From contig JAFUEX010000001.1 of NCBI GenBank assembly GCA_017470165.1, positions 1 through 64,000 on the forward strand: DNA of 64,000 nt, written 5' to 3'. Every line of letters starts with the position of its first letter. Position 1 is the stretch's first letter. A program made the position numbers and the translations under genes. This stretch comes from Alphaproteobacteria bacterium. GTDB taxonomy: Bacteria > Pseudomonadota > Alphaproteobacteria > RF32 > CAG-239. This document shows, piece after piece, positions 44,395 through 60,774 of the stretch. The notes beneath the pieces are model-generated. The model saw only the letters and a program-made list of their open reading frames with translations, made no database searches and had not been told where the DNA came from.

Positions 44395-44470
44395 AGGGGT
44401 ATAGCTCAGTTGGTAGAGCATCGGTCTCCAAAACCGAGGGTCGTGAGTTCGAATCTTACTGCCCCTGCCA
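44395..44470 (+). tRNA. tRNA-Trp (anticodon CCA)
   Basis: A complete 76-base cloverleaf: acceptor stem AGGGGTA with TGCCCCT, D arm with GCTC...GAGC, anticodon arm CGGT-CTCCAAA-ACCG (anticodon CCA), T arm GTGAG-TTCGAAT-CTTAC, discriminator G and an encoded CCA end. Its 3' end serves as the attachment site of the element that follows: the last 17 bases recur at 50990. The tRNA is kept intact, as is usual for such insertions. Confidence 0.95.
44454..44470 (+). repeat. Attachment site copy 1 (tRNA-Trp 3' end)
   Basis: The 17-base sequence TCTTACTGCCCCTGCCA closes the tRNA and is exactly repeated at 50990-51006. The similarity resumes in the hairpin that follows each copy. Confidence 0.85.
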
Positions 44471-44476
44471 TATTTA

Positions 44477-44510
44477 GCCTAACTAATTGATTTAGTTAGG
44501 CAATTTTTTT
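44477..44510 (+). terminator. Terminator hairpin after tRNA-Trp (copy 1)
   Basis: GCCTAACTAA pairs with TTAGTTAGGC around a short loop, then AATTTTTTT. The same 34 bases occur at 51013-51046, after the second attachment-site copy. Confidence 0.9.
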
Positions 44511-44578
44511 GAATTTTTAAGGAAACTGCCAAAAATCAAGGTGTATCACAAGGGTGTATCACAAGAGGTTGAAAACCC

Positions 44579-46354
44579 ATGAACGGACACAACAGGCTGA
44601 TTCGGAGAAACCACACCTACTATTTGAGGGCAAGAATCCCGTTGAACTTGGTTTATCTTACCCACAAAGTCCAATTCTGTTACTCTTTACAGACGAACAA
44701 CTATTACGAGGCACTTGCTAAATTAAGCAAAGAGAGTCATAAAGTAGATATAAAAATTGACCTACTAAAGAGTATTGATATGAGGATTAAAAATAAGCAA
44801 CTGCTTTATGACCAAGAGGATATTGATAAACTTGTTATCCACAGATTAAAACAAGTTGAAGACGCTTTTGAAAATAATTACTTTGAAATCAGCGAAAAAA
44901 ACTTTAACTATGACAATCTGCTTGTATTTAATAAGGAAACACCAACAGCCAATAACAAATCTCAACACGACCTTGAATGTGTAGAACTCTTTATTAAAGA
45001 ATATTTCAAGGACTTGAATGAAGATGAGAGAACTCATAAGAGCGTTGTTAAAATGATTGGCAGGATTGAAAAAGAAGAAATCCCTATCATTGCCGATAAA
45101 ATGAAACCGAGTGATGAAGTCAAAAAAATCAAAACGGCACTCACAGGATTAGACAAGTATATTTACGACAAAGTAAAAAGCATTGAAGAAGACACCGGCA
45201 ATAGCTTTAATATCAATGGTAGAATTGAAAGATGTTTAAGCCTGATACACGCAGAGCAAAATGAAAAAGCTACTAGACCTACAACATCAACGCCATGGGA
45301 CAAAGTTTTTGCCGAGTTTGAATTAGAAAAGAAAAATGAGAGAACAGGACAGAACACAATAAACCAAAATCGTCAATGCTTGGAAACCATCTTTGAAATC
45401 ATTGGCAAGAAATATGTTGAGGGCATTACTTATCAAGATTGTCAAAAGGTCGTTAAGAAGATTTACAACGTGCCAAAGAAATGGAGAGAGCGTTATAAAG
45501 GAAAGAAACTTAATGACCTACTGGCAACACCTAATGAAGACGCAATCTCTTTAACTTCTGTAAAAAAATATTTGAGAGTTTTCAAAGAGTTTATGATATT
45601 TTGTAAAGACAATAGATACATACCAGATAGTTTTCAAGGCGATATAAAAATCACCAAAAGGAAAGAATCAATCAGTATTGAGGCATTTACAAAAGATGAA
45701 TTAAAGAAAATTTTTGACCCGAAAACATATCCAAGAGTTATGGATTTTAAATATTCTTATCGTTATTGGATTCCTTTGATAGCATTATACAGCGGTTTAA
45801 GATTAAATGAAATTTCACAACTTTATATTGAAGATGTAAAATTAGATAAAGGTGTATGGTATTTTTATATTAGTGATGAAAGAAAACATCAACACATAAA
45901 GAATCCACAATCTCAAAGAGTTGTTCCAATACATCCAAAGTTAATAGAATTAGGTTTATTGGATTACATAAACAGAATTAGAGAGCAATCATACAGAAAA
46001 GAAGATTGCCCTGGTAGAATATTTTATCAATTTCAATACAGCAAAAAAAATCATTATATACAATCAATAAGCCAATGGTTTGGTAGATATTTAAAAAGTG
46101 TTGGTATTGAAAGCCGTTCAAAAGTGTTTCATTCGTTCAGACATCTAACAAAACAATATCTTACCATCTGTGATATTCCGCAGGAATATCAAAACAAGCT
46201 ATGCGGATGGAGTGGAAAAGATACAGGCGAAAGAGTTTATGGCGGAAACATTCCAATTAAAAAACTTTATAAAGAAATATCAAAATTAAATTATCCATTT
46301 TTGAATAGAAATATTGAGCGAATAGGTAATAAAAATAAAATTAAAGGGGCTTGA
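44579..46354 (+). CDS. int: Tyrosine recombinase (integrase) of element 1
   Basis: A 591-residue phage-type integrase starting 69 bases after the tRNA terminator. The long N-terminal region opens with GHNRLIRRNHTYYLRAR, a DUF6538-like beginning, and is followed by a SAM-like core-binding domain (about 245-365). The catalytic domain has Arg in SGLRLNE near residue 406, HSFRH near 517, a Trp-type third position in GWSG near 542 and the nucleophile Tyr in RVYGG near 554. It probably catalyses integration into and excision from tRNA-Trp. It is a close paralogue of the integrase at 51105 over its whole length. From about 45570 onward its codons become more A/T-ending than before. Confidence 0.92.
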   Translation: MNGHNRLIRRNHTYYLRARIPLNLVYLTHKVQFCYSLQTNNYYEALAKLSKESHKVDIKIDLLKSIDMRIKNKQLLYDQEDIDKLVIHRLKQVEDAFENNYFEISEKNFNYDNLLVFNKETPTANNKSQHDLECVELFIKEYFKDLNEDERTHKSVVKMIGRIEKEEIPIIADKMKPSDEVKKIKTALTGLDKYIYDKVKSIEEDTGNSFNINGRIERCLSLIHAEQNEKATRPTTSTPWDKVFAEFELEKKNERTGQNTINQNRQCLETIFEIIGKKYVEGITYQDCQKVVKKIYNVPKKWRERYKGKKLNDLLATPNEDAISLTSVKKYLRVFKEFMIFCKDNRYIPDSFQGDIKITKRKESISIEAFTKDELKKIFDPKTYPRVMDFKYSYRYWIPLIALYSGLRLNEISQLYIEDVKLDKGVWYFYISDERKHQHIKNPQSQRVVPIHPKLIELGLLDYINRIREQSYRKEDCPGRIFYQFQYSKKNHYIQSISQWFGRYLKSVGIESRSKVFHSFRHLTKQYLTICDIPQEYQNKLCGWSGKDTGERVYGGNIPIKKLYKEISKLNYPFLNRNIERIGNKNKIKGA

Positions 46355-46375
46355 TTTAAGCCCCTTAGAAAATTA

Positions 46376-46831
46376 TTATTTTTTAGATGTTGTTTTCTTT
46401 GCTGTTTTTTTAGCTGATTTTGCTTGTGCTTCTGTTGCTTCATCATCTGATTTAGATTTTTTCTTAATATATGATTTAATTTCTTTCTCAAAGAAATCAG
46501 TATTAACTTTATTCTTCAAGTCATTTAAAATTTGAACAGGCTGATAAACACCTTTTTTAACAGTATTTTTCCAAATTGGGAATGTTCCACATTTCAAAAT
46601 AACTGTTGTATAATCATCAACATCTTTTAAGATTCTAATATTATTTGAAAGACTACGAGCATTATCTTTATTATCTTGGTAATAAGCAATATTTGTTTCA
46701 ATAGAACTTAAAATGCTTTGCTTAACGCTATCCATTTTATTATTCATTCTAACAGCACTTGCTGTTTTTTCATCCCATCCCTCATATTTAATTGATGTTG
46801 TTTGTGTCTTATTTGCTTGATTTTCCGTCAT
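46376..46831 (-). CDS. Hypothetical protein with Lys/Ala-rich tail
   Basis: A 151-residue acidic-to-basic protein with no signal peptide. It has a predicted helical middle (about residues 25-110) and a highly basic low-complexity tail (KKTAKKTTSKK) that could bind nucleic acid. No family is recognised. It is convergent with the integrase gene, 21 bases away, and may be an accessory protein of the element. Confidence 0.65.
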   Translation of the reverse strand: MTENQANKTQTTSIKYEGWDEKTASAVRMNNKMDSVKQSILSSIETNIAYYQDNKDNARSLSNNIRILKDVDDYTTVILKCGTFPIWKNTVKKGVYQPVQILNDLKNKVNTDFFEKEIKSYIKKKSKSDDEATEAQAKSAKKTAKKTTSKK

Positions 46832-46979
46832 TTTATTTACTCATTTCAATAGAAAATTTGATGTTAAATTGTATTAAAATTGTAAAAAAATTGAACAAAT
46901 ATTATTGATATTTGTTCTAAAGATATATGTTAATTGTTTATTTGACATTATAAAATGTATATAATGTGTATAACTTTTG

Positions 46980-47543
46980 TCATTTTTTCAAATATCTATA
47001 TAAAGTTGGTTTTGAAATATGATATTTGTTCATCAATTCTGTTTCTGTCATTCCAGTTTTTCTGTCATCTTTTACTTGTTGTATAATGACTTTATTTAAT
47101 TTGGTTGGATGTGCTTTTTGATATTTTCCTTTTGCTTGAGCTATTTTAATACCTTCCATTTGTCTTTCTTTAATGGTAATTCTTTCAGCTTGAGCGATTG
47201 CTCCAATGATTGTAAGCATTAACTCTTGTGTTTTAGTAGCAAAATTATCATCATTTGTAAAAGTCCATCCCTCTTTAATAAATGTAATTGAGCAACCTTT
47301 ATCCTTAATTTCTTTAATGATTGTCAACAAATCAAGAGTATTTCTAGCAAGTCTATCAATGCTATGAACAAAAACTTGGTCTTGTGGGCGTAATGCTTTT
47401 AGCATATTATTTAATTCTGTTCTGTTATCTTTACTTTTACCGCTTACTTTTTCGCTATAAATTAAGTCATAATTATCTTTATCTTCTAATTGTCTATCAA
47501 GATTCTGTGTTAAACTAGAACAACGAACATATTTAATTTTCAT
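46980..47543 (-). CDS. Serine recombinase (resolvase/invertase type) of element 1
   Basis: About 187 residues: a resolvase catalytic domain with Ser9 in YVRCSS, the conserved ..VHSIDRLARN near residue 62-71, and an E helix, followed by a C-terminal HTH (MTETELMNKYHISKPTLYRYLKK). The length is that of small resolvases/DNA invertases. The ATG at 47543 has AAAGG upstream; an in-frame ATG at 47558 is possible. Inverted TGATACTATCA sites lie just upstream and are candidate binding or crossover sites. Confidence 0.88.
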   Translation of the reverse strand: MKIKYVRCSSLTQNLDRQLEDKDNYDLIYSEKVSGKSKDNRTELNNMLKALRPQDQVFVHSIDRLARNTLDLLTIIKEIKDKGCSITFIKEGWTFTNDDNFATKTQELMLTIIGAIAQAERITIKERQMEGIKIAQAKGKYQKAHPTKLNKVIIQQVKDDRKTGMTETELMNKYHISKPTLYRYLKK

Positions 47544-47563
47544 TTGCTTACCTTTCATATCAA

Positions 47564-47706
47564 AGTATCATCTTGTTATAACTTTATGATACTATTTTTA
47601 AAAAGTCAAGCATTATTTTTGCTAATATGTTGATTTTTCACGATTCATAAAAAAATGATAGTATCAATTTAATAGAATCATTATCCTATACAACCTGATA
47701 CTATCA
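47564..47706. repeat. Cluster of TGATACTATCA-type palindromes upstream of the serine recombinase
   Basis: Two perfect 11-base palindromes, TGATAGTATCA (47656-47666) and TGATACTATCA (47696-47706), are 40 bases apart. In addition AGTATCAT (47564-47571) and ATGATACT (47586-47593) form an inverted pair. They share the half-site ATGATA/TATCAT. They may be operators or a res/crossover site for the recombinase encoded to the left. Confidence 0.7.
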
Positions 47707-47794
47707 TTTAAAGAAGAAATTATCATCTTTTATTGATTTTTTACTAATAATGTTTTAAGGTATGCTCATTACATAATTTTATAAGGATAAGAAA

Positions 47795-48187
47795 ATGAAT
47801 AAATTTTGGACTTTTACTATTGGTGTTTTATTTGGCATGATTGTAATTCCTTTTATTATTGGATTTTTTAATGGCTTTAGTAATACAACCGATGGCTATA
47901 ACAATCCTTATGGAATAAAGGGATTAAAAATGCTAGAAAAGAAAGGTGATTGTATTACATCTAATAACCTTGAAATATTTCAAAATTTAGCCAATGGTAT
48001 TGCTTTGGCTCATCCTGTAAATAATTACGATACATTAGTTTTACTTATTGATGAAAGTGGAAAACTTTTTTATGATGGCGAAAAAGTTAAAAATCCTGCT
48101 AAAAAATGTGCCAAACAAATAGGAACATATCAATATGAAACAAAAGCTGAAACAATGAAAACTGTTCCAGCTGTTATAATTGAATAA
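47795..48187 (+). CDS. Hypothetical membrane-anchored protein
   Basis: A 130-residue protein with one N-terminal membrane segment (about residues 5-27) and a soluble part with two Cys (near residues 48 and 109). The ribosome binding site is AAGGA, 7 bases upstream of the ATG. No family is recognised. It is convergent with the NERD gene, with only 2 bases between the stops. Confidence 0.65.
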   Translation: MNKFWTFTIGVLFGMIVIPFIIGFFNGFSNTTDGYNNPYGIKGLKMLEKKGDCITSNNLEIFQNLANGIALAHPVNNYDTLVLLIDESGKLFYDGEKVKNPAKKCAKQIGTYQYETKAETMKTVPAVIIE

Positions 48188-48189
48188 AA

Positions 48190-48948
48190 TTAGTATTTTT
48201 GTGTAAATTTACATCTTGGATAATTACTGCAACCGATAAATCTTCCATATCTCCCATCTCTTAATACTAAATGATGACCACATTTAGGGCATAATCCTTG
48301 ATTAACTAACTGTTCTTTATAAGCAATTTTGCTTTTTACTTCTGTAATGTGTTCTTTTTCTGCTTCTTCTAAATTTATATCTGCTGAATTTATTATATCA
48401 GTTATTTTATCAACTTCCAATTTTGTGAGTTTTATATCTTGATATTGCATTATTGTAGAAAAAATATCACTTATGTATATAACATCTGTTAAGGTATTAA
48501 CTTTCAAATCACAATCATCTGAAAAAGCAACAATAGATATAAAATTATCATTTTTAATATGCAACAATCTTTTTAGTGCTGAAATATGACTTTTATTCTG
48601 TCGTATTGGATTATAAAATGAATATTTGTATCCAAACATATTTTTATACCATTTTTCAGAGTTTTCATAGCCAGTAATCCATCCCTTATAATTCTTTGTT
48701 TCAATAACAAATATACCATATATTGAAACAACTACATGGTCAATTTGTGTTGAATAATCATTATATTTCAAAAGAATATCATTTATAACTGAATACTCAT
48801 CTTCATTTAATTGTGATAAAATGTTAGCCACATATCTTTCTCCAATGCGTCCTTTTATTTTTGGAATATTAGTATCCAAAAATTTAGCAAATAATATAAA
48901 TATAATTATACCAAATAAGGCTAAAATTAGTTCCAAAACAATCTCCAT
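48190..48948 (-). CDS. NERD-domain protein with topoisomerase-type zinc finger
   Basis: A 252-residue protein: a membrane anchor (about 4-22), a NERD (nuclease-related) domain (about 32-150) with GERYVANIL, DHVVVSIYGIFVIETKN (the D and E-x-K positions of a restriction-like fold, near residues 70-86), and a C-terminal C4 zinc finger (CPKCGHHLVLRDGRYG..CSNYPRC, about 218-247) of the DNA topoisomerase I kind. The combination implies a membrane-tethered DNA-binding or DNA-cutting protein. NERD proteins are common on plasmids and mobile elements; a role in element maintenance or defence is inference. Confidence 0.82.
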   Translation of the reverse strand: MEIVLELILALFGIIIFILFAKFLDTNIPKIKGRIGERYVANILSQLNEDEYSVINDILLKYNDYSTQIDHVVVSIYGIFVIETKNYKGWITGYENSEKWYKNMFGYKYSFYNPIRQNKSHISALKRLLHIKNDNFISIVAFSDDCDLKVNTLTDVIYISDIFSTIMQYQDIKLTKLEVDKITDIINSADINLEEAEKEHITEVKSKIAYKEQLVNQGLCPKCGHHLVLRDGRYGRFIGCSNYPRCKFTQKY

Positions 48949-49069
48949 ATTTTTTTAACAATTATAATTAGTGTTAATTAATAAATTATAAAATATATGT
49001 AAAATTCGTGTTGAAAAATTTTATTATCATTATATGATAAGTCTATGGTTTTAGTAGTGGAGAATATAA

Positions 49070-49402
49070 ATGAAAAAAAGGCTCTTATTGTTTGTTTTAG
49101 TTCTATCTGGTTGTGTTCAAAATCGTTTTTTATATACTGATGAAAAGGGAAGTAATGTTTATCAAACAGATTGTAGCTGGAGTGATTTTGGAGATTGTTT
49201 GATTGAAGCAAATAAAAGTTGTCCGATGGGCTTTAATATAGTAATGTCAAGTGAAAACCCAACAGGAAGCTTTTCAAATTTTGATGGTCATGGAACAACA
49301 ACAGGATTTGGAAATTTTTATTCTTCAAATTACAACGGTTGGGGTAATAGTTGGAATACATATAGTCGGTATATTATATATTCTTGCAAATTAGAAAAAT
49401 AA
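49070..49402 (+). CDS. Small lipoprotein
   Basis: A 110-residue protein with a lipoprotein signal peptide and lipobox LSGC (Cys15). The mature part has four further Cys, with a DFGDCLIEANKSCP segment followed by a Gly/Asn/Ser/Phe-rich tail and a final Cys. This resembles small outer membrane lipoproteins common in uncharacterised gut alphaproteobacterial and Bacteroides contexts, but I cannot name a family. It may be involved in surface exclusion; that is speculation. Confidence 0.7.
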   Translation: MKKRLLLFVLVLSGCVQNRFLYTDEKGSNVYQTDCSWSDFGDCLIEANKSCPMGFNIVMSSENPTGSFSNFDGHGTTTGFGNFYSSNYNGWGNSWNTYSRYIIYSCKLEK

Positions 49403-49404
49403 TC

Positions 49405-49590
49405 TTACATCTCAATTATTTCATATTTGCCATTATAAAATTTTATAACGGCATAGTTATGTTTATTCATTGATTCAAAAACCACAATCCACGAAAAAAC
49501 ACAATTAAAAACAACTTTTCCGCTTGCTTTTACATAAGAGTATTTTGGGCGGTTAATCATTAAATGGTAATACGCTCTCTCTATTTCCAT
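49405..49590 (-). CDS. Small hypothetical protein (61 aa)
   Basis: The frame overlaps the 3' end of the upstream gene (49553-50083) by 38 bases on the same strand, so it could be translationally coupled. Composition is plausible (mixed, with aromatic residues), but no clear ribosome binding site (weak AGGG) or family supports it. Confidence 0.4.
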   Translation of the reverse strand: MEIERAYYHLMINRPKYSYVKASGKVVFNCVFSWIVVFESMNKHNYAVIKFYNGKYEIIEM

Positions 49591-50083
49591 TATAAACCCT
49601 ATAACATTCCAAAATTCTCTTGGTAATTAAAGCATTGCCTTTATCCATCATCTGTAATAATGTTCGGTTGATTGATTGCTTGTTATCATAATTCATAAAG
49701 CAATCATAAACTTGGCTCAAATTCTGTATCAAATTGTAAATGGTGTTTGGCGATGGTTTTCTATTCTCGCAAATAATCATTGAAAGATAATGCTGACTCT
49801 TATTCAAAAACTGTTCGCAAAACTGGTGTTGACTATGAATTAAACCAAGCCTTTGAAGATATTGACAACACTGTTTAATGAAAGCCACATCTTCATTAAC
49901 CTGCTCTTGTTGAAATCTTTGACAGCGAATCTGTCTTAATTCGTCATTATTCTGCTCTTTTTCATCTTTTAGAGCCGATTTTTTAACCGCTGAATCATTG
50001 TTTTCAATTTCAGAGTCCAGTTGCTTATTACGAGTCATCAAACTCTTTATACGGCTCTTAAAACTGTTTTTTATTGAATCCAT
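49553..50083 (-). CDS. Helical protein with HTH-like region
   Basis: A 176-residue protein. The N-terminal 70 residues are charged and coiled coil (KSRIKSLMTRNKQLDSEIEN). The middle (about 95-145) resembles a short HTH domain of the DUF6626 type: FCEQFLNKSQHYLS..ENRKPSPNTIYNL. This suggests DNA binding. It lies 28 bases downstream of the HUH Rep-like gene on the same strand, so it is likely co-transcribed and could help control replication. The assignment is tentative. Confidence 0.6.
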   Translation of the reverse strand: MDSIKNSFKSRIKSLMTRNKQLDSEIENNDSAVKKSALKDEKEQNNDELRQIRCQRFQQEQVNEDVAFIKQCCQYLQRLGLIHSQHQFCEQFLNKSQHYLSMIICENRKPSPNTIYNLIQNLSQVYDCFMNYDNKQSINRTLLQMMDKGNALITKRILECYRVYNGNRESVLPFND

Positions 50084-50110
50084 TTTTCATACCTTTGTTA
50101 TTGGTATTTA

Positions 50111-50521
50111 TCAATTAAAGTTTGGAATCTTCTCGTATAAATCGCTGTTGGTAACGATTGAGCCACCCTCTTTTAAGCAGTAGTTATAAACATTGGTTTC
50201 ATCATATTTACGGCTACCTATCATCTGAAAGTTGGCTGTCAAATGTGGGTAAATATTCACAAGGCTATCTTTAAGGAAGTTGTAAAACTTCATCATCATA
50301 TTTGTTGGCACATCAACAATTATGTGTAAATGAGGTTGTTTGAAATCTTCCGAGCCAATCTCTTGAAATATGCCTATTTGATATTGTTTGTCTTTGTGTT
50401 TGTAATATCTTGAACCAAGATATTTTCGGTAATACTTCTTCAAAATTGTTGTGAAGTTGTTGAGTAAGTTGTTTTGAGATAAGTTCTCAATGTGTGGGTT
50501 AAATGTTAGAAAAATCTTCAT
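50111..50521 (-). CDS. HUH/YxxK Rep-like endonuclease (small)
   Basis: About 136 residues from ATG 50521 with AAAGGA upstream. The order of motifs fits rolling-circle Rep nucleases: a motif I-like IFLTFN (residues 3-8), motif II HUH as PHLHIIVD (H64 and H66), and a motif III YxxK, YCLK (Y114, K117). The whole protein is only the endonuclease domain; the helicase or primase domain found in longer Reps is missing. It would nick and religate single-stranded DNA at an origin; candidate sites lie just upstream (50600-50842). Function is inferred from motifs; an Inovirus/plasmid Rep or a small IS200-like transposase are alternatives. Confidence 0.72.
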   Translation of the reverse strand: MKIFLTFNPHIENLSQNNLLNNFTTILKKYYRKYLGSRYYKHKDKQYQIGIFQEIGSEDFKQPHLHIIVDVPTNMMMKFYNFLKDSLVNIYPHLTANFQMIGSRKYDETNVYNYCLKEGGSIVTNSDLYEKIPNFN

Positions 50522-50599
50522 CGTCAATCCTTTGATAATAGTGAATAATAGCCGATTTGTAAATCAGCCTGTTAAAAGTTCTAATATTTTCAGCCCTTG

Positions 50600-50842
50600 G
50601 CGGTGGGAGAATAACTACACCACCGCTTTATGCTTAATTTTTGGGAAAGTCGGTTGATGATGGACTTTCCCTGTCATCATCAACCACAAAATCATTTTAC
50701 CACACCAACCCGAGTTTTGGCAAAAATAAAATGACCTCAACCTTATTTATCGTGGAGTGATTAAAGTTTGTAATTGTGCTTAAAACGCTTGTAAATAAAG
50801 GGGTTTAAGCGGTGGTTATAACCACCGCCAAATAATATTATT
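50600..50842. repeat. Origin-like cluster of inverted repeats beside the Rep-like gene
   Basis: GCGGTGG (50600-50606) pairs with CCACCGC (50620-50626). GGAAAGTC (50644-50651) pairs with GACTTTCC (50663-50670), interleaved with GGTTGATGATG (50652-50662) paired with CATCATCAACC (50675-50685). A perfect 20-base palindrome GCGGTGGTTATAACCACCGC lies at 50809-50828, followed by the AT palindrome AATAATATTATT (50831-50842). No gene covers 50528-51104. The cluster starts about 80 bases upstream of the Rep-like start and resembles a plasmid origin with iterons. Confidence 0.65.
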
Positions 50843-50989
50843 AAATCGTGTCTATTAAAATCACTTGACATCAATAAAATAAAGGCTTATAAGTGTTCTC
50901 AACAATGAAACACAAGACACATTAAAAATACTCTTTATGATAAAATTGATTATGTAAAATCAGTTAGATAGAAAAAATATAATAGGGGT

Positions 50990-51006
50990 TCTTACTGCCC
51001 CTGCCA
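50990..51006 (+). repeat. Attachment site copy 2
   Basis: An exact copy of the last 17 bases of tRNA-Trp, preceded by AGGGG, which could pair with its CCCCT. No tRNA body is present here, so this is a junction scar, not a gene. Confidence 0.85.
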
Positions 51007-51012
51007 ATATTT

Positions 51013-51047: not shown

Positions 51048-51104
51048 GATTTTTTTTAAAAAGTGCTATTTTCCCAACTGCTACACAGGAGCATTTTTGA
51101 GAGC

Positions 51105-53541: not shown

Positions 53542-53814
53542 AAAATTCTCCTTTTGATATATTTATCGGAGAATCAAAGGATTGCGAGCAAAATGTTCTG
53601 CTGTTTTAACGAACAATTAAATCAACTAATTTTTTAAGTATTTTGTTGAGATGTAATTTTAGGCTCGTGAGGATATATAATTCCTTGAAACATAAGGGGT
53701 TCAAGGGATTTAAAAGGTTAATTTTGCACTATTCATTTAGTAAGATAACCGCCTTCAACACAAATGTTCGTTTCTGTTAAGTCCGAATCAGGTGCAATTT
53801 AATGGAATTTGAAT

Positions 53815-54327
53815 ATGAGTAAGACCTGTGCTTTTCTTGGAAATGATTACGATAAAATATTCGGTAAGCCTTGCTGGCATCACACACCTGAAGGGTTAAA
53901 AGAACGAATTAAAGACGAAATCATCAATTTAATTAAAAATGAAGATGTTACCGAGTTTCTGGTCGGAGAGCTTGGAGGCTATGAAAAAGATGCTTATGAT
54001 ACGGTTTTAGAGGTGCAGAAGGAATATCCGAGCATCCGAGTAATCCTCGTTATCTCAAAAATAACCGAATTACACGAGGTGGGCGAATGTGATGCTCACT
54101 ATGCTCACCAGCGCAGACCTTGCAATGACTGGATTTACCCCGACAAATGTGCAACTGGTTACAGAAGGTTGTGTATTGTCTATCGTAACCGCTATATCAT
54201 AGAAAACACGGACTTTATCATCGCTTATAACAAACGACAAGGACGAGCCTACGAATTCTGCAAGCAAGCCAAAGGCAAAGGTGTCAAAGTGATTGAATTG
54301 GCAGAAGAATTTAAACAAATGTCATAA
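53815..54327 (+). CDS. SLOG/YpsA-like (DUF1273-type) protein
   Basis: About 170 residues. The N-terminus TCAFLGN followed by a helical region and VGELGGYEKDAYDTVLEVQKEYPS, then a run of beta strands, fits the Rossmann-like SLOG superfamily (DprA/YpsA/LOG). SLOG proteins bind nucleotides or NAD-derived signals, and some are sensors in anti-phage systems. A Cys-rich insert (HAQRRPCNDWIYPDKCATGYRRLC) is unusual. It stands alone between the recombinase and the DUF4365-like gene; a defence role is inferred from context. Confidence 0.62.
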   Translation: MSKTCAFLGNDYDKIFGKPCWHHTPEGLKERIKDEIINLIKNEDVTEFLVGELGGYEKDAYDTVLEVQKEYPSIRVILVISKITELHEVGECDAHYAHQRRPCNDWIYPDKCATGYRRLCIVYRNRYIIENTDFIIAYNKRQGRAYEFCKQAKGKGVKVIELAEEFKQMS

Positions 54328-54523
54328 ATTGGCAGAAGTGCTTATTTTTGATGACTTTTGAAAATATTTTAGTTGATTCCACTTTAATCATGTTTATAAT
54401 AAACAACCAACGAGAAATTAATCACTATTTAACCTGAAGAAATGCTTAGAAAATTTAAAATAGTAATATGGAAAAAGACAAATTTGTCTACGATTAAGTT
54501 TCTGCTATTTGCAGGAGATAAAA

Positions 54524-56269
54524 ATGGATAATTCTGAAATAGAAGCATCTGCAGTCGGTTCTGTCCATAGCAAATTAAATGATACAGGATTTATTAATGT
54601 GTCGGATATTAAAGAAGGAGACAAATTTCCTATATGGGATGGAAATATATTAGTTTATTCTTCTGATAAACAAAAAAATAATGAAACTATACGATATAAA
54701 ATTCCTATTCAAATTAAAGGAACAGAAGCAAAGATAGAGAAATCATTAAAATATAATATTAGAACGAACGATTTAAAAAAATACTGTAAAGATGGAGGCG
54801 TTTTATATTTTGTTGTTCAAGTGATTAGAGGACATTCTGAAAACAATAAAGTTTTTTATATAGATTTATTACCAGCAAAAATTAAAAGAATATTACAAAA
54901 TAAAGAAAAAAATGGTAAAATAAGTATTGATATTAAAAATCTACCTTCCAGTAGAGAAGAATTAGTAAATTTAATATTTAATTTTGGTTTAAATAGAGAG
55001 AAACAAGCAGATTTTATTCCTATTGACAAATATACACTTGCTGATTTTAAAGAAATATGTTTGCACTATGAAACTCCATTCAAAACCACTCCAAATGACA
55101 TTTTATTAAATTTCAGTGGCTACGCGTACGGATATAAGGATAATATACCTTATCCGTTTGAAATACCCAAAGGAGCAATTAGCCATACTATTAGTGCACC
55201 ACTTAAAATATCAATAAATGAAACAGAATGTTTTAAAAATTGCGAATTAAGAAAAGATATTAACACATTAACTTTAATAATAAATCATAACATTGAATTT
55301 ATATATAATAATGAAAATAAAAATGTGAAATGTAACCTTTTATTACAAGGAACACTTCGTAATTACATTGAAAGCACAAAATTTTTATTAGAAGTACATA
55401 AATACAGGCATTTTTATGTCAATGGGTATAAGCAAGATTGCCCTTTTGAAAAAGATGATACATCTGTATTAGAAAGCAATTTAAAATACTATGAGGAATT
55501 GAAAAAGGCTTTTGATGAAAGTGGGGTAAAAGAAGATATAGAACTTCATCAATTTAATGAAAATGATAATAAGAATGCAACTATTCTTATAAATGCCTTT
55601 GTTTATAATCAAGATATAGCTCTTAAAACAGATGCAGAAGGATATGTTTTAGATTTTCATATATTAGATAAAACTATAACTTGTCTAGCATTTCGTAACA
55701 AAACAGGAAAATATAATTTCAAGAGATTTCCTATTGAAGGAATTGTAACAGTAGAAAAAAATGGAAATTTATTAAGAGTTCCATCTATTTTGATGCTTAA
55801 AAGACAACATTTAAAAAATTCTATTAACATTCAAATTGATTCGTTTTTAGATTATATAAAAAAATGTCCTATTTCACCCTATTACTTAGATATTGTAAAT
55901 GAAACAGCTCTAGAACTAATGGCTGCCTATGATGATATTAACAAAAGTAGCTTATTAGATACTGCAGAAAATATAATAAATTGGATAGAAGACAAAAATA
56001 AGGATGAAAAATCAGCTGTGGTATATCATTTAAATCTACTTCAGTGTAAGATAAGGAAAAATAAAAAATTATCTAATGAAGATAAAGATTATCTCCATAC
56101 ATTAGTTGAAGAAAATAATGCTCCAATACTTAAATATGGTGCTTATATTTTGTTACAAGATAAACAAGGAGCGGAAAGACAATTTAAGAAATTGGGTCAA
56201 GATGACCAAAATAATATTAAAAAGTTCCCTATTTATAAACTATGGGAACAGTTGAATAATAACACTTAA
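54524..56269 (+). CDS. DUF4365-like nuclease candidate with long helical C-terminus
   Basis: About 581 residues from ATG 54524 with an excellent GCAGGAG site. The first 130 residues resemble a DUF4365 / restriction-endonuclease-like fold: FPIWDGNILVY (D39) then IPIQIKGTEAK (Q63, K65), and later a strand LYFVVQVI. The D...QxK pattern fits a metal-dependent nuclease, but the first acidic residue is not certain. The remainder has no recognised domain: a beta-rich middle and a C-terminal alpha-helical part (about 430-580) that could be TPR-like. It might be a stand-alone antiviral effector. Strongly A/T-rich. Confidence 0.55.
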   Translation: MDNSEIEASAVGSVHSKLNDTGFINVSDIKEGDKFPIWDGNILVYSSDKQKNNETIRYKIPIQIKGTEAKIEKSLKYNIRTNDLKKYCKDGGVLYFVVQVIRGHSENNKVFYIDLLPAKIKRILQNKEKNGKISIDIKNLPSSREELVNLIFNFGLNREKQADFIPIDKYTLADFKEICLHYETPFKTTPNDILLNFSGYAYGYKDNIPYPFEIPKGAISHTISAPLKISINETECFKNCELRKDINTLTLIINHNIEFIYNNENKNVKCNLLLQGTLRNYIESTKFLLEVHKYRHFYVNGYKQDCPFEKDDTSVLESNLKYYEELKKAFDESGVKEDIELHQFNENDNKNATILINAFVYNQDIALKTDAEGYVLDFHILDKTITCLAFRNKTGKYNFKRFPIEGIVTVEKNGNLLRVPSILMLKRQHLKNSINIQIDSFLDYIKKCPISPYYLDIVNETALELMAAYDDINKSSLLDTAENIINWIEDKNKDEKSAVVYHLNLLQCKIRKNKKLSNEDKDYLHTLVEENNAPILKYGAYILLQDKQGAERQFKKLGQDDQNNIKKFPIYKLWEQLNNNT

Positions 56270-56500
56270 TTACAGATGTATATATCTAACATTTCATAGC
56301 ATATCTGTGTAAAGCAGACTAATCAACGCTTAGAAAATTGGTAATTTTTGGCAGTAAACACAGGAAAAATCACATTTTGCTAGAAAATTTAATGTCATGA
56401 GCTTTAGAATACTCATGGCAACAATCACAAGATTCTAATTGATTTTTAATAATTGATAACTTATGATTTTTCTAATATTTAACCAATATAGAGAAATACA

Positions 56501-59500
56501 ATGCCTATAGCGAACTATATTAACGAAATTAACAAAAGATATAAAACCGGAATATCACGCGAGCACTCTTACCGCGGAGATTTGCAAAGTTTGATAGAAA
56601 CGCTTGTTACAGGTATTATTGCGACCAACGAACCGGCACGAATTGAGTGTGGAGCTCCAGATTATGTTATAACCAAAAACAATATTCCGCTTGGATATAT
56701 TGAAGCTAAAGACCTTGATGATGATTTAGACAACAAGAATCATAAGGAGCAATTTGACCGTTATCGTAATAGTTTAAACAACCTTATCATTACCAATTAT
56801 TTGGAATTTCGTTTTTATAGAGATGGTGAAAAAGTTAATACAATCCGTATAGGTCATATTGAAAATGGGAAAGTTGTTGCCAATACAGAGCATTTCCAAG
56901 CATTTAATGATTTAATTGTTAATTTTTGTGCTTATAGAGGACAAACGATACATTCTGCTTCAAAATTAGCTAAAATGATGGCAGGCAAGGCAAGATTATT
57001 AGCTGATGTTATCAAAAATGCCTTAAACAGTAAAGACGAAAGCTATGATAATCGCACTCTTCAAGACCAAATGATAGCTTTTCAAAAAATCTTAATCAGC
57101 GATATCTCTAAAGAAGAATTCGCTGATGTTTATGCTCAAACTATTGCTTATGGTATGTTTGCCGGTCGTTTGAATGATAGCACTTTAGAAAATTTTTCAA
57201 GGCAGGAGGCTTGTGAGTGCATTCCGAAGTCCAATCCTTTTTTGCGTAATTTATTCAGTTACATTGCCGGACCAACTCTTGATGACCGTATTAAATGGAT
57301 TGTTGATGATTTGGCAGATGTATTTGTTGCCGTTAATTTGCACGATATTTTAAAATCTTTCGGCAAAGCAACCAAGACCCAAGACCCGATAATCCATTTT
57401 TATGAAACCTTTTTGAGCGAATACGACCCGAAACTTCGTAAATCTCGTGGGGTTTGGTACACACCGCAACCTGTTGTTAATTTTATTGTACGTGCTGTTG
57501 ATGATATATTAAAAAGCGAATTTGGACTTTCAGAAGGTTTGGCGGACACTTCTAAAATAACTCTTTCAATTAAAGACAGTAAATATGGAACAACTAAAAA
57601 AGGCGACAAACTGGCTACAATCAAAAAAGATGTCCATCGTGTGCAGATATTAGACCCAGCTACCGGAACAGGAACATTTTTAGCCGAGGTGGTTCGGCAA
57701 ATTCACGAGAAGTTCATTGCTATGCAAGGAATGTGGTCAAGCTATGTAGAACAACATTTACTACCGAGATTACATGGTTTTGAGATTTTAATGGCATCTT
57801 ATGCCATGGCACATCTGAAGTTAGATTTGATTTTGAAGGAAACCGGTTATCAGGCAACAAATAATGACCGTTTGAAGATTTATTTAACAAATAGCTTGGA
57901 AGAGCCGCATCCAGATAGCGGAACCTTATTTGCCAGTTGGTTATCACAAGAAGCAAGCGAGGCTAATGAGATTAAACGGGATGTTCCGGTAATGGTGGTT
58001 TTAGGTAATCCTCCATATAGCGGTGAAAGTTCAAATAAAGGTGAATGGATAACAAACCTGATAGATGTTTATAAACAAGAGCCGACAGGAGGCAGATTGC
58101 AAGAAAAGAATCCTAAGTGGATTAATGATGATTATGTTAAGTTTATTCGCTATGCTGAACAATTTATTGAAAAGAATAACACGGGTATTTTAGCATATAT
58201 TAACAATCATAGCTTCTTGGATAATCCAACGTTTCGTGGTATGCGTTGGCACTTACTAAACACTTTTGATAAAATTTATATTTTGGATTTGCACGGTAAT
58301 GCCAAGAAAAAAGAAACTTGTCCAGATGGTTCAAAAGATGAAAATGTTTTTGATATTCAACAAGGTGTGTCTATAAATTTGTTTATTAAGATAGATAATA
58401 AGCGAAGAGGACAGCTTGCAGAAGTTTATCATTATGACCTTTACGGTAAAAGAGAAGGCAAATATGAGTTTTTAGCAGACCATAACTTGAGTAATATAGA
58501 TTTCAATAAATTAGAACATCAGGCACCATATTATTTCTTTGTGAAGAAAGACTTTGGACTATCCAAGAAATACGATAAAGGTTTTGGTATTACGGAACTG
58601 TTTAATATTAATAATGTTGGTATTGTTACGGCCAAAGACAGTATACTTGTAAAAGAAACAGCTGATGAACTTTCATCTTCTGTTGCGTCTTATTACAATA
58701 TTGAGGCTGATAGCAGTAAAATACAGTCAGTTACATATCGTCCATTTGATAACAAATATGTTTATTATGATACCACCTATATTGAACGCCCTCGTGAAGC
58801 TGTTATGAAACATTTTCTTCATAGATATAATTTAGGATTAATAGCAAAAAGAGGATTTACTCAACTAGAGGCAATGAGTGGTTTTATTACAAAATCCATT
58901 ATTGATTTTAGAAGTTGGTCATGTGCAGGAATGCAAGGTGGTGACTATATTTTTCCACTTTACATTTATGAAGATTTGGATAATTCTCGGCATCCGAACT
59001 TTAATAACGAGATTATTCAAAAGGTTGCTGAAGGATTAAAATTAAAGTTTACAGAAGAAAAAACGGATGAAAAAGATACTTTTGCTCCGATAGATGTTTT
59101 GGATTACATTTATGCTGTGTTACACTCACCCAAATATCGTGAAACCTATAAAGAGTTCTTAAAGATTGATTTCCCGAAAATTCCATATCCAACCGATAAA
59201 ACAAAATTCTGGAAGTTGGTTGATTTAGGTTCGCAAATTCGCAAAATACATTTACTTGAAAGCGATAAATTAAACACTTTAACCATCGGCTACCCGATAA
59301 GTGGCGATAATATTGTAACAAAATTGAGCTATTCGGATGAAAAAGTGTTTATTAACGACATCCAATATTTTGATAAGGTTCCGGAAGTCGCTTGGAATTT
59401 TTATATCGGAGGTTACCAACCGGCACAAAAATGGCTCAAAGACCGTAAAGGTAAGGAATTATCCTTTGATGATATCAAACACTATTCGCAAATCATCAAT

Positions 59501-59575
59501 GCTCTTTACCTAACCAACCAACTTATGCAACAAATTGATGAGATAGTAAACCAGGTTTTTATAAACGGAAAATAG
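56501..59575 (+). CDS. Single-chain restriction endonuclease-methyltransferase (Type IIG/ISP-like)
   Basis: A 1024-residue enzyme. The N-terminus has a PD-(D/E)xK nuclease site: D54 in GAPDYV, and E68 and K70 in GYIEAK. The gamma-class N6-adenine methyltransferase is in the middle, with DPATGTGTFLAE (motif I, near residue 385) and LGNPPYSG (motif IV, near 503). The C-terminal 400 residues would contain the target recognition domain. No helicase motifs are visible, so it resembles Type IIG rather than full Type ISP. It should methylate and cleave DNA at an unknown recognition sequence. The DUF3644 gene begins 2 bases after its stop. Confidence 0.88.
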   Translation: MPIANYINEINKRYKTGISREHSYRGDLQSLIETLVTGIIATNEPARIECGAPDYVITKNNIPLGYIEAKDLDDDLDNKNHKEQFDRYRNSLNNLIITNYLEFRFYRDGEKVNTIRIGHIENGKVVANTEHFQAFNDLIVNFCAYRGQTIHSASKLAKMMAGKARLLADVIKNALNSKDESYDNRTLQDQMIAFQKILISDISKEEFADVYAQTIAYGMFAGRLNDSTLENFSRQEACECIPKSNPFLRNLFSYIAGPTLDDRIKWIVDDLADVFVAVNLHDILKSFGKATKTQDPIIHFYETFLSEYDPKLRKSRGVWYTPQPVVNFIVRAVDDILKSEFGLSEGLADTSKITLSIKDSKYGTTKKGDKLATIKKDVHRVQILDPATGTGTFLAEVVRQIHEKFIAMQGMWSSYVEQHLLPRLHGFEILMASYAMAHLKLDLILKETGYQATNNDRLKIYLTNSLEEPHPDSGTLFASWLSQEASEANEIKRDVPVMVVLGNPPYSGESSNKGEWITNLIDVYKQEPTGGRLQEKNPKWINDDYVKFIRYAEQFIEKNNTGILAYINNHSFLDNPTFRGMRWHLLNTFDKIYILDLHGNAKKKETCPDGSKDENVFDIQQGVSINLFIKIDNKRRGQLAEVYHYDLYGKREGKYEFLADHNLSNIDFNKLEHQAPYYFFVKKDFGLSKKYDKGFGITELFNINNVGIVTAKDSILVKETADELSSSVASYYNIEADSSKIQSVTYRPFDNKYVYYDTTYIERPREAVMKHFLHRYNLGLIAKRGFTQLEAMSGFITKSIIDFRSWSCAGMQGGDYIFPLYIYEDLDNSRHPNFNNEIIQKVAEGLKLKFTEEKTDEKDTFAPIDVLDYIYAVLHSPKYRETYKEFLKIDFPKIPYPTDKTKFWKLVDLGSQIRKIHLLESDKLNTLTIGYPISGDNIVTKLSYSDEKVFINDIQYFDKVPEVAWNFYIGGYQPAQKWLKDRKGKELSFDDIKHYSQIINALYLTNQLMQQIDEIVNQVFINGK

Positions 59576-59577
59576 TG

Positions 59578-60774
59578 ATGTTACAAAATATAAAGCCAAA
59601 TCGTAAGAAATCAAAAGCAGGTGGTCTAACTTTAGAAGAAAAAAGACTAGTAAAAGGTTTGTTAAAAAAAGGATATATTCCTCAAGATATTGTTCATATT
59701 GTCAATCAAGGAAGATTACAAACAACTAATCTAGGCAGAATTTCTGAGATTTCCAAAGATAATACTATATTAGAAGCACCTGATGAAGAGGTAAATAAAT
59801 ATTTGGTAATTCAGTCCTCTTATGATTCAAAAACATTATTAAATCCCTATAAAGATTGTCGTTTAATTCGTTCCAGAGAAGCTATGATGGCGGCAGTTGA
59901 GATATTCAATAACCCTAATATGTTTTTTAGAATAGAAATGTTCTGTGTTTTATCTAATATTGCATGGACTTATTTATTCCAAGAAAAATTAGAACGTACG
60001 AAATTAGGTTCATCTAAACGACACAACGGAGATTCAAAATCATTAAATGAAATGCTCCGGTCTGCCGATTGTCCTATAAGCAATAAAGCAGTTTGTGAAA
60101 ATATTAATAAAATTATTGATATAAGAGATAAAGTTGAACATGTTTTATTTTCTGGCGGAGACGAAAAGTTTGGTGCTTTGTTTCAATCAAATTGTCTAAA
60201 TTTTGACCACTATTTAACAGAATGGTTTGGCGAAAATTTAACATTATCTAATAATTTATCATTGGCATTGCAATTTGTTGGATTACAAAAAGAACAGATA
60301 GTAGATATGGATTTATCAACCTGGCCTAAAGAGATAAAAGCCATATACAATGGCATTGAGACAAATGAATTCGCGGACAATAATGCCTTTAAGATAAAAG
60401 TTTATTATGGAACAGAAATAACATCCAAGACCAAGAGTGATATAACGCAATTAATTGATTATAGTACAACTCCAAATGTTTCTCAAACAGTAATAAAAAA
60501 AGTTAGAATAGATAAATTATCCGACTATCCTTTGTCCTATACTCAAGTTGCTAAGCAAATTAAGATAAAGAATGATAAGATAACAACAAATGACATCAAT
60601 AAAATTATATCAGAAAAAAATATCAAAAAAAATGCAGAGTATTCGTATATCAATTTTAGAAATAAAAAACAGGAAGAAAAATATGAAAAAGATAAAAATA
60701 TTCCCAAAGGAGTTCCTGTTATCTATAAAGAATCTGTAATTGACTATATTATTTCAGTATATAATGAAAAATAA
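59578..60774 (+). CDS. DUF3644-domain protein coupled to the restriction enzyme
   Basis: About 398 residues from ATG 59578 (2 bases after the upstream TAG; a GTG overlaps). The N-terminus has an HTH-like segment (LLKKGYIPQDIVHIVNQGR, then TTNLGRI, near 28-60). The DUF3644 region follows (about 110-220), with FRIEMFCVLSNIAWTYLFQ and a RDKVEH motif near residue 185-190. The C-terminal 100 residues carry another segment with a possible HTH (TQVAKQIKIKN). The function of DUF3644 is unestablished. Tight coupling with a Type IIG enzyme suggests an accessory or immunity role. Confidence 0.7.
   Translation: MLQNIKPNRKKSKAGGLTLEEKRLVKGLLKKGYIPQDIVHIVNQGRLQTTNLGRISEISKDNTILEAPDEEVNKYLVIQSSYDSKTLLNPYKDCRLIRSREAMMAAVEIFNNPNMFFRIEMFCVLSNIAWTYLFQEKLERTKLGSSKRHNGDSKSLNEMLRSADCPISNKAVCENINKIIDIRDKVEHVLFSGGDEKFGALFQSNCLNFDHYLTEWFGENLTLSNNLSLALQFVGLQKEQIVDMDLSTWPKEIKAIYNGIETNEFADNNAFKIKVYYGTEITSKTKSDITQLIDYSTTPNVSQTVIKKVRIDKLSDYPLSYTQVAKQIKIKNDKITTNDINKIISEKNIKKNAEYSYINFRNKKQEEKYEKDKNIPKGVPVIYKESVIDYIISVYNEK

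Follow-up and report, generated by a model that had tools for sequence, protein, structure and literature searches.

An integrated plasmid-like element of a gut alphaproteobacterial family with a probable nuclease-only Rep and overlapping helices in the rep leader

The question raised by positions 50111-50842 of the 64,000-nucleotide stretch analyzed here (the window, part of contig C5 of the 1.45-Mb genome of an Alphaproteobacteria bacterium, assembled in 26 contigs) is whether a protein of 136 residues serves as the replication protein (Rep) of an integrated element, and what role the repeats upstream of its gene play. An initial annotation of the letters alone had proposed a small rolling-circle Rep beside an origin-like repeat cluster within an integrative plasmid-like element. 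Its observation is confirmed and its interpretation partly supported. We consider it fairly probable that the following explanation holds as a whole: 44454-51006 represents an integrated plasmid-like element of small size, its 136-residue protein acts as a HUH (Y1) Rep consisting of a nuclease alone, nicking occurs in a stem-loop termed N, and the balance between two overlapping helices, termed P1, sets Rep synthesis. The central gene is:

50111..50521, minus strand: rep, encoding a 136-aa HUH/Y1 nuclease without helicase domain (H64, H66, Y114); from open reading frame (ORF), alignment, and model

The ORF spans 50111-50527 on the minus strand and yields 136 amino acids from the ATG at 50521, with HLH at residues 64-66 and YCLK at 114-117, exactly as numbered before. 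In an alignment of 16 homologues (19 match rows minus a weak match in a 1430-aa protein of G046, a 108-aa partial frame of G060:C4, and a duplicate gene row of G037), H64, H66, and Y114 were invariant (16/16). The lysine of YxxK was retained in just 10 of the 16; in L027, L030, L031, L032, and L034 it is replaced by Asp or Asn, with both histidines and the tyrosine kept. Near the N-terminus, P9 (16/16) and T6 (15/16) of FLTFNP are conserved, a segment which we take to correspond to the known Rep motif I. The predicted model shows the HUH fold: the HUH motif sits on one of the core strands, and the catalytic tyrosine follows on a later helix. Motif conservation and model together support the assignment as a Rep-type HUH nuclease lacking a helicase domain.

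The best solved match to the model was the SIRV1 ORF119 Rep (PDB 2x3g), likewise a tiny single-domain HUH/Y1 protein; it has been classed as a superfamily II Rep and reported to be dimeric (PMC4187194). It is equally small, which weakens the earlier remark that an element of this size with so small a Rep would be unusual; it differs in serving a linear archaeal virus with a flip-flop mechanism, and identity is about 19% over the aligned part. The remark is also weakened by the integrated pCRESS plasmids with HUH Reps (Kazlauskas 2019, PMC6668415), which share site-specific integration, direct repeats, and the lack of capsid genes. Their Reps possess a helicase domain, whereas the protein studied here stops after the nuclease domain and thus has no superfamily 3 helicase domain of the CRESS/pCRESS type; no alphaproteobacterial group is named in the accessible part of that source.

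In the Pfam search, REP_ORF2-G2P (PF23343) scored 19.0 bits, below the gathering cut-off of 27.8, and was matched by 10 of the 16 members at E≤1 (best 5.6e-4). No match was found in plasmid records, no family in NCBIfam or PADLOC, and no Rep by PDB sequence search; phage records gave two weak matches, with E-values of 0.06 (Microviridae VP4) and 9, and two IMG/VR searches with a pattern prefilter gave none that was confirmed. The weak VP4 and REP_ORF2-G2P similarities, together with the size of 4-8 kb, would suit a satellite of a filamentous phage or microvirus that borrows a capsid. We give this reading very little credence, as no capsid, Zot, or packaging family was present in the nine element proteins scanned and the prefiltered IMG/VR searches yielded no confirmed match.

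The protein could also be a transfer nuclease, that is, a small relaxase mobilizing the element with a helper instead of a vegetative Rep. In relaxases of the common families the tyrosine precedes the HUH motif, whereas Y114 lies C-terminal to H64 and H66, which is the Rep order. In addition, Pfam, PHROGs, and NCBIfam named no mobilization gene among the scanned element proteins. Relaxase (PF03432) was matched by one of the 16 members (E 0.014), Rep and relaxase roles overlap in some plasmids (PMC5714925), and the element has moved between genera, as described below. A transfer role appears improbable.

The limits of the element are defined by 17 identical nucleotides at both borders, which match the 3' end of a tRNA-Trp gene (att denotes the attachment site):

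44395..44470, plus strand: tRNA-Trp, integration site (ARAGORN, Rfam RF00005)
44454..44470, plus strand: attL core, 17 nt, 3' end of tRNA-Trp, with an identical 17-mer at 50990
50990..51006, plus strand: attR core, identical to the attL core
44579..46354, plus strand: tyrosine integrase, 591 aa, DUF6538 and Phage_integrase (PF00589) by Pfam; homologues in 7/15 rep loci

The element thus combines an integrase, noted previously and borne out by the PF00589 match, with direct tRNA 3'-end repeats at both borders, the arrangement of an integrative element at a tRNA gene. A search with the downstream flank returned no clean empty site; instead, a third copy of the att core was found beyond the window (G000:C5:72236-72250, L076), followed by 185 bp with 96% identity to 44456-44640, the start of the integrase gene. 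The tRNA-Trp gene therefore carries a tandem array of elements. Three short contigs examined for a circular form had no terminal overlap.

Upstream of rep, the leader contains the structure on which the second part of the explanation rests:

50643..50685, minus strand: P1, overlapping helices a(11)-3-b(9)-a'(11)-b'(9) forming mutually exclusive hairpins (covariation, shuffles, window scan)

The segments follow the order a-b-a'-b', and the linkers L2 and L3 measure only 0-1 nt, so both helices cannot be complete at once. In an alignment of eight sequences (A5, from which L023 and L045, both near-duplicates, and leaders differing in helix length were omitted), 97.5% of the cells pair and 14 of the 20 pairs show changes on both sides. 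The covariation score was 0.604, compared to 0.221 ± 0.037 for shuffled alignments (reached by 0/500) and a maximum of 0.208 when the structure was slid along the alignment. A check with nine sequences gave 98.0% pairing for helix A and 100.0% for helix B. P1-like structures exceeded all 100 shuffles of their own sequence in 16 of 20 leaders, among which L020/L022/L023, L029/L045, and L031/L032 are close relatives; none was seen in L025, L026, L034, and L072. Within the window, P1 was the top-scoring site of its kind on both strands (23.0), followed by its own reverse complement (20.0/19.0) and one further place (18.1). The repeat cluster noticed earlier is thus above chance, P1 beating 100/100 shuffles; rather than a single origin, it probably represents two things, the P1 leader and the N stem-loop. 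The overlap of the two repeats had been missed. Apart from the tRNA, Rfam reported nothing in the window, matches in 50450-51010 were at chance level, and no family fits the leader. A complete H-type pseudoknot was rejected since none of the nucleotides remain free to cross helix A; incomplete forms may exist.

P1 also lies just downstream of a predicted promoter:

50694..50723, minus strand: predicted rep promoter TTGCCA-18-TAAAAT, with TG before the second hexamer (promoter scan)

In 12 of the 16 leaders, the distance from the end of a TTG-N18-TAnn(A/T)T pattern to P1 is 7-11 nt; the number expected from shuffles is 0.135. Transcription usually starts 6-8 nt after a promoter, and P1 would hence begin the transcript. 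The rep-sense strand pairs better in L028, L030, L031, and L033; the count of 19 G-T versus 3 A-C pairs was not used here because the search rewarded G-T pairs and two leaders were imperfectly split. Promoter placement and the better pairing of the rep-sense strand suggest that P1 acts as RNA, single-stranded DNA also being possible. In ViennaRNA calculations, hairpins A and B differed by 0.4-5.6 kcal/mol, with A favored in 10 of 13 leaders.

The chief rival holds that P1 works as DNA: it would be the binding site of Rep or a single-strand origin, N would be the nick site, and the position at the transcript start would be a by-product of rep autoregulation. A binding inverted repeat plus a nick stem-loop is the standard layout of rolling-circle replication (RCR) origins (PMC13107129, PMC5714925), the leader goes with rep or decayed rep loci (10 and 3 of 14 model matches, below), and single-stranded DNA tolerates G-T pairs as well. 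However, P1 varies freely (29/43 nt) under the same Rep (135/136 aa), unlike a sequence-specific duplex binding site, the promoter spacing is maintained in 12/16 leaders, and 4/20 leaders have no P1. We therefore regard a DNA role as unlikely, though it deserves serious attention.

The nick site itself is most likely to be sought in the second conserved structure of the leader:

50600..50626, minus strand: N, stem-loop with the arms GCGGTGG and CCACCGC around a conserved 13-nt loop, candidate for the nick site (leader comparison)

Of the 20 leaders, 16 contain the motif [AC]TTC(0-2)CC, which was picked after inspection (a looser motif gave little); L025 and L026, both without P1, are among them. 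In 15 of 20 leaders, shuffles seldom produce the hairpin (k≤8/300); in L022 and L024 the register that was scored is not the listed one. Among 16 stem-loops curated by hand, pairing is possible at all four innermost positions (64/64), the closing G-C being constant and the other three pairs of 3, 5, and 4 types; the loop has 13 nt in six, 14 in nine, and 20 in one. In alignment A7, 65.1% of the N cells pair, a value lowered partly by register slips. Judging from these sequence comparisons, the N loop is the best nick-site candidate. The SNJ2/Rep-Arvir elements offer a parallel, as they combine an integrase with a small RCR replicon containing an inverted repeat and a nick stem-loop, but they are archaeal, their Rep falls outside the HUH superfamily, and the origin lies downstream of rep (PMC13107129).

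In the proposed mechanism, the integrase would excise the element and insert it at the 3' end of tRNA-Trp. A metal-binding histidine pair and a covalently linked tyrosine are established HUH chemistry; accordingly placed, H64 and H66 would bind the metal, and Y114 would cut one strand, most likely in the loop of N, and stay linked to it. Rolling-circle copying of the excised circle would rely on a helicase of the host, proposed because the element shows none. Transcription of rep would start at about the first base of P1. Hairpin A (a:a') would compete with hairpin B (b:b'), as their helices share no spacer, and the balance would set Rep synthesis and hence copy number.

Related logic is known from the rep leaders of pT181, pSK41, and pIP501, where alternative leader pairings set Rep synthesis and copy number; the antisense RNA there either drives a terminator or covers the ribosome site (PMC5703833). 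In contrast, no terminator was recognized here, and the overlapping helices are spacerless and lie at the 5' end. No terminator-like site occurs in the leader, where A residues follow b', and no masking of the Shine-Dalgarno sequence by b' was seen by eye. As to an antisense RNA, no promoter for it was clearly recognized; the promoter scan listed a plus-strand site at 50521-50549 (9/12), one of 7 sites where 4.8 ± 2.3 are expected. From its sequence, P1 is probably a bistable switch on Rep expression. More tentatively, and with a probability that we place somewhat short of even, P1 is a new cis-acting nucleic-acid switch in which spacerless helices of about 11 and 9 bp open the mini-Rep transcript and each full hairpin destroys the other. 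Neither the element nor a rep leader with the order a-b-a'-b' was found described in the accessible literature. The fast turnover of P1 under a nearly unchanged Rep (29/43 nt versus 135/136 aa) invites comparison with incompatibility determinants. By this analogy, P1 may set copy number and exclusion among co-resident elements, possibly sensing Rep or N.

Of 153 genomes from a single gut alphaproteobacterial family, 21 contain mini-Rep elements, as does one other among 385 class-level genomes; in a phylum-level sample of 398 genomes, Rep occurred only in its own genome. All named loci of Rep relatives (13/13) belong to metagenome-assembled genomes of uncultured Alphaproteobacteria or proteobacterium, several from roe-deer gut; the lineage is presumably the RF32-type group of gut bacteria. 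At least 9 of 19 stretches have rep between tRNA repeats, which involve at least seven tRNA kinds and lie 4.0-8.4 kb apart (longest repeat tested, 40 nt). L020 and L021, from two genera and located at tRNA-Trp and tRNA-Thr, respectively, have rep genes identical at 401/408 nt, and recent horizontal movement is therefore indicated.

A covariance model of the leader (P1+N, helix A and N only; strict filters, E≤0.01) matched 14 of the 153 family genomes, at one place each. The rep gene is in place at 10 matches and deleted or fragmentary at three tRNA-Lys loci, so that the leader accompanies rep. In these decayed tRNA-Lys elements, L094 (G027), L095 (G219), and L096 (G180), the leader outlives rep. 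The fourteenth match (28 bits, G096:C1) lies in a stretch that encodes no element protein. If the protein were a Y1 transposase, domesticated or of IS200/RAYT type, the RAYT/REP hallmark of many dispersed hairpins per genome would be expected; the single match per genome under these strict filters, without dispersed copies, and the integrase and tRNA att repeats of the locus leave scarcely any weight for this reading.

The remaining features of the element are the following:

46376..46831, minus strand: 151-aa protein, cluster C7, accompanying the integrase (comparison of rep loci)
46980..47558, minus strand: serine recombinase of invertase/resolvase type, 192 aa (Pfam Resolvase, E 1.7e-33)
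47795..48187, plus strand: 130-aa cargo ORF, no convincing family match
48190..48948, minus strand: cargo protein with NERD and topoisomerase zinc ribbon (Pfam)
49070..49402, plus strand: 110-aa cargo ORF, lipoprotein-like by eye from its sequence, no family match
49405..49590, minus strand: 61-aa rep-module protein, cluster C4, at 9/15 rep loci
49553..50083, minus strand: DUF6626 rep-module protein, 176 aa (Pfam PF20331, E 2.9e-10), at 11/15 rep loci, one split
50550..50569, minus strand: H3, a hairpin noted by eye directly before the ribosome-binding site of rep, with like hairpins, also noted by eye, in several relatives
50809..50828, no strand assigned: perfect 20-bp palindrome GCGGTGGTTATAACCACCGC (sequence), sharing the arm GCGGTGG with the N stem and not seen in aligned relatives

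The model of the DUF6626 partner is all-helical (pLDDT 85.2); its N-terminal part has two long helices, and its short helices resemble a helix-turn-helix (HTH) by eye. It had zero PDB matches at E≤0.001; VIA-align returned coiled-coil or helical-bundle rows only, HTH repressor rows (E 2.8-3.8) being a mere hint. No paper on DUF6626 was found in the open-access literature. An integrase other than the large tyrosine type is present at 2 of 15 rep loci, and in L026 a 514-aa ORF resembles a large serine recombinase by eye.

In the tandem array, element 1 measures 6.5 kb and is followed by element 2 (~21 kb, with its own integrase at 51063) and, at a minimum, by the beginning of a third. No rep was found in element 2. 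Its cargo spans 53809-60774 and includes a type IIG restriction-modification enzyme (56501-59575) and a PDC-S19-like candidate defense protein (59575-60774); relatives of a small protein at 53809 occur in other rep elements.

The locus defines a family of tRNA-integrated elements, 4-8 kb in size, whose core is a mini-Rep with a nuclease domain only. If our reading of the leader is true, it would provide a compact example, open to testing, of a bistable structure governing a replication initiator, and with it a second small counterpart from bacteria to the rudivirus Rep for mechanistic work.
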